Virus record (IMG/VR): IMGVR_UViG_3300034063_001448
Span: 1-29,199 of that record
DNA length: 29,199 nucleotides
Reading direction: 5' to 3' (one strand)
Source of the DNA: a virus
Under the pieces are notes generated by a model that searched no databases, was not told where the DNA came from, and saw only the letters and a program-made list of their open reading frames with translations. The first letter of the stretch is position 1. Each line of letters begins with the position of its first letter. The position numbers were made by a program, and so were the translations under genes. Positions 27,442 to 29,199 of the stretch are shown piece by piece.

Positions 27442-27463
27442 TCTATTTCACATAGAGATTCAG

Positions 27464-27490
27464 GAGGGTCCGCAAGGACCCTCTTTTTTT
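27464..27490 (+). terminator. Rho-independent terminator after gp23
   Basis: GAGGGTCC (27464-27471) and GGACCCTC (27476-27483) form a perfect 8-bp, GC-rich stem around a GCAA tetraloop (a GNRA loop), directly followed by seven T (27484-27490). It is the only strong intrinsic terminator I find in the window and ends the head operon after the capsid gene. Confidence 0.92.
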
Positions 27491-27491
27491 A

Positions 27492-27499
27492 TCTAAATA
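27492..27499 (+). promoter_or_regulatory. Variant late box between terminator and gp3
   Basis: TCTAAATA lies one base after the terminator T-run and 12 bases before the gp3 ATG. It has one mismatch to the ATAAATA core. A promoter is expected here because the upstream terminator would block read-through, but the match is imperfect. Confidence 0.35.
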
Positions 27500-27511: not shown

Positions 27512-28060
27512 ATGACTAGAGGGCAAATAGATAATAGAAACTTTTTATCCCCAACAGGATTTAAGTTTACTCTAACTAGAACACCTAAAGTTGCTTTTTT
27601 CTGTAATCAAGCAAATATTCCCGATTTAAATCTTGGAGTTGCTATTCAACCTTCATATACAAAAATGTTACCAACTCCAGGTGACATCATTGAATTTGGT
27701 GATTTAAGTTTAAGATTTTTGGTTGATGAAAATCTTGAAAATTATATGGAAATACAAAACTGGATACGTGGTTTAGGATTTCCAGAAGATCTTCAGCAGT
27801 TTGATGATTTAGAAAAGTCTGGGACCGTTCAAGGAAACTATGCAAGAGATCGTCAGAACATTTATTCTGATGGAACTTTACAAGTTTTAACTAGTAGTCA
27901 AATACCAAATTTTCAGATAAGATTCCAGGACTTATTTCCATATTCATTATCAACAATGACGTTTGATGCAACTGATACTGATATTCAGTACTTTACGGCA
28001 GACGTTAGTTTCAAGTATACTATATACAACATTTATGATTTGCAAGGAAATAAACTATGA
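27512..28060 (+). CDS. 3: Tail completion and sheath stabiliser gp3
   Basis: 182 residues; T4 gp3 has 176. In T4, gp3 caps the tail tube and helps fix its length before gp15 joins. The N-terminal block NFLSPTGFKFTLTRTPKVAF, then ANIPDLNLG, and the central DENLENYMEIQNWIRGLGFP are what I recall for cyanophage proteins annotated gp3, which follow gp23 in those genomes. The fold is tube-like (related to gp19). No clear Shine-Dalgarno sequence precedes the ATG. Its stop overlaps the uvsY start (ATGA). An alternative reading is another gp19-like tube or adaptor protein. Confidence 0.75.
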   Translation: MTRGQIDNRNFLSPTGFKFTLTRTPKVAFFCNQANIPDLNLGVAIQPSYTKMLPTPGDIIEFGDLSLRFLVDENLENYMEIQNWIRGLGFPEDLQQFDDLEKSGTVQGNYARDRQNIYSDGTLQVLTSSQIPNFQIRFQDLFPYSLSTMTFDATDTDIQYFTADVSFKYTIYNIYDLQGNKL

Positions 28061-28494
28061 GTATTGATTTGGATACTATCCAAAAAATGTGGGAAGAAGA
28101 TTCAAAAATAGATATTGATAATCTACATACAGAATCTTTAAATATTCCAATTTTACATTCAAAATATTTTGATTTATATAATACAATCAATCTATTGAAA
28201 AAGAGAGCAGAGCAGCAAAAGAAAAAAATAAGACACGAAAGATACGAATACTTTACTGGAAAAGCAGACCCAGACGTTTACTTAGAAAACCCCTTTCCCA
28301 AAAAGATTCGAGATAAAGAAACTCTTCAAGGATATCTAGATTCTGATGAGAAATTATCTCAGGTAGTTTTAAAGATAGAATACTATGAAACAATGCTGAG
28401 CTATATTGATAGTATTCTTAAGATGATTTCAAATCGAACTTATCAAATTAAAAATTCTATAGATTTTCTACGTTTTCAGTCTGGACTAGGGTAA
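28057..28494 (+). CDS. uvsY: Recombination mediator UvsY
   Basis: 145 residues; T4 UvsY has 137. It loads the UvsX recombinase onto single-stranded DNA covered by gp32. Recognised from the early MWEEDSKID segment and LKKRAEQQKKKIRHERYEYF followed by FTGKADPDVY, plus the C-terminal helix LKMISNRTYQIKNSIDFLRF. The protein is helical and lysine-rich, suitable for DNA binding and hexamer formation. It overlaps gp3 by ATGA and lies next to uvsW as in T4 and cyanophages. The uvsW late box begins on the last base of its stop codon. Confidence 0.88.
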   Translation: MSIDLDTIQKMWEEDSKIDIDNLHTESLNIPILHSKYFDLYNTINLLKKRAEQQKKKIRHERYEYFTGKADPDVYLENPFPKKIRDKETLQGYLDSDEKLSQVVLKIEYYETMLSYIDSILKMISNRTYQIKNSIDFLRFQSGLG

Positions 28495-28501
28495 ATAAAT
28501 A
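28494..28501 (+). promoter_or_regulatory. Late promoter box upstream of uvsW
   Basis: AATAAATA begins at the final A of the uvsY stop codon. By T4 geometry (start about six bases after the box) the transcript would begin near 28507, inside the left arm of the inverted repeat at 28501-28527, leaving only about four bases of that arm. Confidence 0.68.
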
Positions 28502-28527
28502 CTCATAGCAATTATGATGCTATGAGT
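28501..28527 (+). promoter_or_regulatory. Inverted repeat burying the uvsW start codon
   Basis: ACTCATAGCA (28501-28510) and TGCTATGAGT (28518-28527) are perfect complements separated by the 7-base loop ATTATGA. The uvsW ATG (28522-28524) lies inside the right arm. In a transcript entering from upstream the start codon would be paired; in a late transcript starting near 28507 the hairpin could not form. T4 uses this arrangement for genes such as e, soc and 49. Confidence 0.75.
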
Positions 28528-29199
28528 GATGTAATCATTGAAAAGAAGAATGAGGTTTATATTAAACTACACTGTGAACCTCATATTCTTTACGAACTTC
28601 AACCATACTTTACATTTGAGGTTGAATCTGCAAAATTTATGTCCCAGTATAGAAGCAGACACTGGGACGGCAAGATTCGCCTATTAAGTTCTCATACTGG
28701 AGAAATTTATACTGGTTTGTTGGATAAGGTTATCGACAAACTAAAACTCCATAATTATACGTATGAGTTTAAAGAAAATAAATTTTATGGGTTACCTTTT
28801 GAGGTAAATGAAAATGTATCCTTCGAAGGTGTGAAGGATTATATGTCTTCTATTTGTTCTCATTCTCCACGTCAGTATCAAATAGAGGGAGTATACGATG
28901 CTCTAAGACATAACCGAAAATTACTGATATCACCCACAGCCTCAGGAAAATCCTTGATGATTTATTCCCTTGTAAGGTATTATGTAGATAAAGGACAAAA
29001 AATTCTTCTAGTTGTTCCAACGACATCTTTGGTAGAGCAGATGTACAAGGATTTTGAAGATTATGGTTGGAATGTGGATTCATACTGTCACCGAATTTAT
29101 TCTGGTAGAGAGAAGACAAATGAACATCCTGTCACGATTACAACATGGCAATCTGTATATAAATTAGAACGTTCATTCTTTGAGGACTATGGAGTAGTT
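28522..29199 (+). CDS. uvsW: UvsW-type SF2 helicase, N-terminal 226 codons (runs off window)
   Basis: Partial; 226 codons are visible of a protein of about 500 residues. UvsW is a late helicase that unwinds R-loops and remodels replication forks, shifting T4 from origin-dependent to recombination-dependent replication. Residues 1-105 form the N-terminal DNA-binding domain (YRSRHWDGKIRLLSSHTGEI). The helicase core follows: a Q-motif-like PRQYQIEG (116-123), Walker A SPTASGKS (137-144), motif Ia VVPTTSLVEQM (164-174) and TITTWQS (205-211). The start is the only usable ATG; ATGs at 28514 and 28517 read only into a TGA that overlaps it (ATGA). The start codon sits in a hairpin. Confidence 0.93.
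   Translation, partial: MSDVIIEKKNEVYIKLHCEPHILYELQPYFTFEVESAKFMSQYRSRHWDGKIRLLSSHTGEIYTGLLDKVIDKLKLHNYTYEFKENKFYGLPFEVNENVSFEGVKDYMSSICSHSPRQYQIEGVYDALRHNRKLLISPTASGKSLMIYSLVRYYVDKGQKILLVVPTTSLVEQMYKDFEDYGWNVDSYCHRIYSGREKTNEHPVTITTWQSVYKLERSFFEDYGVV

Follow-up and report, generated by a model that had tools for sequence, protein, structure and literature searches.

A hairpin over the uvsW start codon beside a late promoter box: a candidate late translation switch in marine T4-like phages

In bacteriophage T4, translation of e, soc and 49 occurs from late transcripts only, owing to an inhibitory hairpin at the initiation region of each gene. UvsW removes the R-loops that start T4 replication, and late control of T4 uvsW was reportedly described by Derr and Kreuzer in 1990. 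Published work demonstrates that a late promoter drives T4 UvsW expression and that the protein unwinds R-loops at origins (PMC3016281), that the T4 late box occupies positions -13 to -6 relative to the transcription start (PMC1524935), and that the homing endonucleases I-TevI, segB and mobE combine a late promoter with a sequestering hairpin, I-TevI additionally repressing its own late promoter (PMC2988022). No such box and hairpin lie directly before the start of T4 uvsW. Within the open literature searched, outside of which lay Derr and Kreuzer (1990) and the Syn9 transcriptome, no description of the uvsW hairpin considered here was found.

This hairpin lies in a 29,199-base IMG/VR virus record, analysed as a whole and referred to below as the window, whose nearest annotated relatives at the DNA level are Synechococcus and Prochlorococcus T4-like phages and marine single-cell viruses. 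A gp3-like tail completion gene, uvsY and uvsW follow one another there (Table 1), with the major capsid gene upstream of the gp3-like gene as judged from the gene order of relatives. The original prediction described a perfect 10-bp inverted repeat with a 7-base loop, the uvsW ATG in its right arm and a late box directly before its left arm, and the sequence bears out each of these elements. The two arms (28501-28510 and 28518-28527) are 100% complementary, the ATG (28522-28524) falls within the right arm, and the box shares one base with each of its neighbours: its last A (28501) also opens the left arm, and its first base (28494) also closes the uvsY stop codon (28492-28494).

Table 1. Positions of the hairpin, promoter elements and genes in the window.
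Feature	Position	Strand	Basis or remark
Gp3-like tail completion gene	27512-28060	+	Gene order and annotation of relatives
uvsY (recombination mediator)	28057-28494	+	Pfam UvsY, 4.3e-42
uvsW (helicase)	28522-29199, runs off the window	+	ATG at 28522; Pfam UvsW_N, 6.9e-13, and ResIII; PHROG DNA helicase
CTAAATA late-type box before gp3	27493-27499	+	Conserved in most relatives
Sigma70-like promoter in the end of gp3 (TTTACG 27992-27997, 18 nt, TATACT 28016-28021)	27992-28021	+	Pattern; synonymous conservation
T4-type late promoter box, AATAAATA	28494-28501	+	Sequence; ATAAATA scan; T4 box position (PMC1524935)
Predicted late-transcript +1	28507	+	T4 rule (PMC1524935)
Hairpin left arm, ACTCATAGCA	28501-28510	+	Sequence, folding, covariation
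Hairpin loop, 7 nt	28511-28517	+	Length and sequence vary among relatives (alignment)
Hairpin right arm, TGCTATGAGT, holding the uvsW start codon	28518-28527	+	Sequence, folding, covariation

The hairpin has an energy of -12.6 kcal/mol (z -4.7), and none of 200 shuffled sequences folded equally well. By count, a perfect 10-bp inverted repeat with a loop of 3-12 nt is unremarkable in 29 kb, one having been found in the whole window against a mean of 0.45 in shuffles, and the repeat taken alone is not significant. What is significant is where it lies, over a start codon and next to a late box, together with its conservation in relatives, and a chance repeat is excluded because the arms covary in those relatives. 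None of the remaining + strand ATAAATA boxes in the window has such a hairpin downstream; a general cyanophage late-promoter motif was rejected, the window's other late boxes being followed by neither CTCATAG nor a hairpin. A + strand terminator was likewise rejected, since the hairpin is without a trailing U tract, and the terminator scan returned at this position only a weak minus-strand call, which reflects the many Ts in the strand opposite the box. Rfam covariance models did not match the hairpin at their gathering score; two weak, sub-threshold matches lie nearby.

It had further been proposed that late RNA loses most of the left arm, such that the start is hidden in read-through RNA and free in late RNA. 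Assuming the T4 rule, the +1 would fall at 28507 and remove six of the ten left-arm bases, and folding of the two transcript forms predicts the expected difference, the longer form closing the AUG and the form from 28507 opening it. Specifically, unpairing the bases around the start codon is predicted to cost 10.1 kcal/mol in RNA beginning 60 nt upstream, in which the probability that the AUG is unpaired is about 0.001, and 3.6 kcal/mol in RNA from 28507. When the RNA spans all of uvsY, other folds compete and reduce the opening cost to 6.2 kcal/mol, with the AUG still paired (predicted probability of being unpaired, about 0.02). The predicted outcome is sensitive to the 5' end: the AUG is closed at 28503, intermediate at 28505-28506, and freed from about 28507. 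No Shine-Dalgarno-like sequence is found in the predicted late RNA.

Covariation and the association of the hairpin with the box agree with this folding. Loci with uvsW were drawn from three scans and from annotated phages, giving 166 distinct junctions after de-duplication, among which 112 carry [A/C]TAAATA near the start, 53 do not, and one has no clear start. The boxed junctions comprise an ATG class (n=59, the window included) and a GTG class (n=53). The exact ATG type occurs in none of the cultured phages examined; in S-SM2, Bellamy and SynMITS9220M01 the box accompanies a GTG or a shifted start. In most unboxed junctions the start of uvsW meets the end of uvsY or overlaps it (as in ATGGTTGA), which, as an arrangement of sequence, is a sign of translational coupling; P-TIM68 is one phage with the overlap. 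Box and hairpin are kept with uvsW even where a gene end other than that of uvsY comes before them (L039 and L046, for instance). Mean opening cost is 7.6 in read-through and 4.3 in late RNA for the 112 boxed junctions, against 4.0 for the 53 unboxed (Mann-Whitney 1.5e-13, p-values here being optimistic as the sequences are related). In a duplex test, pairing of the left segment with the start region reached -8.8 kcal/mol versus -3.2 kcal/mol for shuffled left segments, and at matched spacing none of the 53 unboxed junctions has such arms at p<=0.05. In the energy and duplex sets, starts were assigned automatically, and for L024 and L026 the choice wrongly fell on an in-frame ATG that lies a few codons too far upstream; the hairpins of these two loci are normal.

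Analysis of the 10-pair stem in 37 distinct ATG-class junctions found 95.4% of cells paired, versus 23-46% when the partner was slid by 1-3 columns. Two-sided cells numbered 17 against 3.8 in shuffles (0/500), and the covariation score was 0.242 against 0.135 (0/500); L149 and L166 were misregistered by MAFFT in this alignment, making the result conservative. Fitch counting on a tree of uvsW coding DNA, with 46 loci in the same register, gave 11 two-sided changes to Watson-Crick pairs, and 23 one-sided changes to G.U versus 2 to A.C. In a DNA palindrome G.U and A.C are equally bad, whereas in + strand RNA only A.C is a fault; the large excess of G.U over A.C therefore points to + strand RNA pairing and not to a DNA palindrome. 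Right-arm coding bases are constrained by the protein, and the three pairs that are noncoding on both sides show the same G.U bias. Replacement of a whole arm with pairing kept is seen in L046 (ACACATAAC/GTTATGTGT), L149 (ACATTACAT/ATGTAATGT) and L166 (ATATAACAAA/TTTGTTATAT). The covariation at related uvsY-uvsW junctions that had been named as a check of the original prediction is thus present in the ATG class, where these substitution patterns argue that the hairpin is real and is maintained by selection as RNA.

The GTG class is less uniform: its arms are weaker, with 22 of 53 reaching p<=0.05 in the duplex test, and some boxed members (L164, L161, L066, L084) have almost no arms. Relatives that keep the late box with no complementary arms had been put forward as evidence that would tell against the switch, and the minority of the GTG class in which the box stands beside weak arms goes part of the way towards this for that class. 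The claim is accordingly firm where uvsW starts with ATG and fair for the majority of GTG-class junctions, but no more than tentative in the others.

The read-through RNA that the original prediction assumed has a likely origin in the sigma70-like promoter before uvsY. Its -10-like hexamer ends 35 nt 5' of the uvsY ATG, the pattern is matched in 129 of 156 relatives, and synonymous conservation of its TAT and ACT codons (98% each) is the highest of the region, that of the -35-like TTT being 96%. Such conservation exceeds the need of the protein and fits a pre-late promoter read by the host sigma factor. An early operon reaching gp55 was considered as a source and set aside as unneeded, since gp55, the late sigma factor gene, has a well-formed sigma70-like promoter immediately 5' of it in L084, L085 and L088, with the hexamers TTGTCA and TATAAT in S-SM2 and Bellamy. 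Further upstream, a strong terminator (27462-27485) follows the capsid gene and has the CTAAATA box within 8 bases, a pair conserved in most relatives. These promoter patterns make it probable that upstream RNA exists in the late phase as well as before it; with the hairpin in place, neither population would yield UvsW. The CTAAATA box before gp3 therefore makes "own-promoter only" a safer description than "late only"; of the late-only switch as first proposed, the supply of pre-late read-through RNA gains support, and the restriction to late RNA is weakened in that some read-through may itself be late.

In our judgement, the probable explanation of these data is an RNA switch, acting in cis, that makes translation of uvsW depend on the gene's own late promoter. 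Transcripts initiated farther 5', whether at gp3 or at the sigma70-like promoter that precedes uvsY, would carry both arms, burying the uvsW AUG in the 10-bp stem and blocking ribosomes. Action of the late sigma factor gp55 on the AATAAATA box would instead start RNA near 28507, and this transcript, without six of the ten left-arm bases, would retain a weak residual 4-bp stem and an open AUG.

Several other explanations can be set against such a switch. Were read-through mostly late, starting from the CTAAATA box before gp3, the hairpin might serve insulation and not timing, with uvsW output following the strength of its own promoter separately from gp3 and uvsY dosage. The terminator and the conserved CTAAATA directly before gp3 in most relatives would fit this; we nonetheless consider it unlikely, given that synonymous conservation in this region peaks at the sigma70-like promoter ahead of uvsY, making pre-late RNA likely, and that T4 UvsW comes from a late promoter (PMC3016281). 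A repeat downstream of a late box could alternatively be a DNA operator bound by a dimeric repressor, and the palindromic arms do occupy a site from which a bound repressor would block the promoter, with autorepression by I-TevI as a precedent (PMC2988022). A DNA palindrome, however, leaves unexplained the 23 one-sided changes to G.U against 2 to A.C, and the arms have been swapped wholesale in L046, L149 and L166 with pairing preserved, making this reading very improbable.

The remaining two explanations place the hairpin in RNA but give it another function. UvsW acts on branched nucleic acids, and T4 gp43 uses a hairpin operator (PMC3014915), such that autogenous repression by UvsW bound to the hairpin, as for T4 gp32 and gp43, might be imagined; it is less probable again, since neither the sequence nor the length of the loop is conserved, the arms are exchanged wholesale, and late RNA, the would-be main source of UvsW, would be without the site. 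Least probable of all is an activating split ribosome-binding site of the T4 25/38 type, in which the hairpin would bring an upstream Shine-Dalgarno sequence near the start. The end of uvsY is indeed G-rich before the box (CTAGGG), but the AUG (28522-28524), which a split site would leave outside the stem, is in the right arm, whereas the T4 hairpin sits between Shine-Dalgarno sequence and AUG (PMC3014915); moreover, L039 and L046, in which other sequence precedes the box, have no G run and yet keep the hairpin.

A cis-acting switch at uvsW would resemble those of T4 e, soc and 49 in having an adjacent upstream late promoter, a left arm around the late start, and a start hidden only in long early RNA; it would differ in that T4 hides the Shine-Dalgarno sequence and/or the AUG, while here the AUG would be the hidden element and no Shine-Dalgarno sequence is evident. 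When whole genomes were scanned, the top T4 starts were 66997, 46855 and 144431, which we take to be lysozyme e (from its MNIFE start and length), gene 49 and I-TevI, respectively, so that the likeness first drawn to e and 49 is recovered and extends to I-TevI. With I-TevI, segB and mobE the locus shares the arrangement of late promoter and sequestering hairpin; unlike them, uvsW encodes a replication and recombination helicase, is not mobile, and has neither an intron nor an operator of the I-TevI type. Features of the T4 late-only switches found here are a paired start codon, a late box predicted to trim the 5' arm and, in the ATG class, selection at the RNA level, and by those defining features that sequence can test, the uvsW hairpin belongs with the switches of e, 49 and I-TevI.

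Matches of the scan among cyanophages were an HNH endonuclease (G001; L255 10065-10367) and a SegE-like GIY-YIG endonuclease (S9220M01; L282 443-877), each with a late box and a start hairpin like T4 segB and I-TevI. Separately, at about 70971 of G001:C1 (- strand; locus L255 10573-10971), a late box is followed by GAGGGGAGTGTTGCTACTCCCCTTTTTTT and then by an ATG. This hairpin is terminator-like, and a late transcript would partly lack its left arm and may thereby escape a termination that stops read-through RNA; the gene (PHROG 3316) stands beside one with weak endolysin matches.

The GTG class shows a further peculiarity. In 39 of its 53 distinct junctions, an ATG, four codons and a TGA form a mini-cistron that begins 7 nt downstream of the late box and whose TGA overlaps the uvsW GTG (GUGA in RNA; for example L153, L061, L084 and L085); in seven junctions the mini-cistron has 6 codons and overlaps further, and in a few it has been lost. 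An A follows the GTG in all 53, though the second amino acid varies, and AGATG is retained even where unpaired (the L055 group). Tentatively, and with doubt prevailing, late RNA of this class might begin AG-AUG and yield UvsW by termination-reinitiation from a near-leaderless five-codon mini-cistron, a process that the hairpin would block in read-through RNA.

Gene order sets the context in which such a switch could matter. In T4, uvsW and uvsY lie on opposite strands, and uvsY RNA therefore cannot enter uvsW in sense; in Aeromonas phage 25 and Vibrio phage PVA8, similarly, the gene preceding uvsW has the reverse orientation. In cyanophages, Melnitz and Stenotrophomonas phage Yut3, uvsW lies on the same strand as uvsY, after or close behind it. 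A switch is needed only where uvsW follows uvsY on the same strand, and cyanophages have two arrangements there, coupling or box plus hairpin; compared with T4 uvsW, the hairpin is a cyanophage-side feature accompanying the uvsY-uvsW order. The suggestion that an early block is biologically sensible is consistent with the late promoter and R-loop unwinding of T4 UvsW (PMC3016281), but such a block is not obligatory, because about a third of distinct junctions (53/166) have neither late box nor hairpin.

The time at which UvsW appears can set the changeover from origin-primed to recombination-driven replication, and cyanophages, unlike T4, place uvsW directly behind uvsY. If the switch works as proposed, it would keep a late function late inside a transcript made earlier. 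Switches of this kind were previously known for a few T4 genes, and at uvsW the predicted arrangement is found in many marine T4-like phages; if this reading is true, a single late-hairpin solution would be common to lysozyme, homing endonucleases and a replication helicase.
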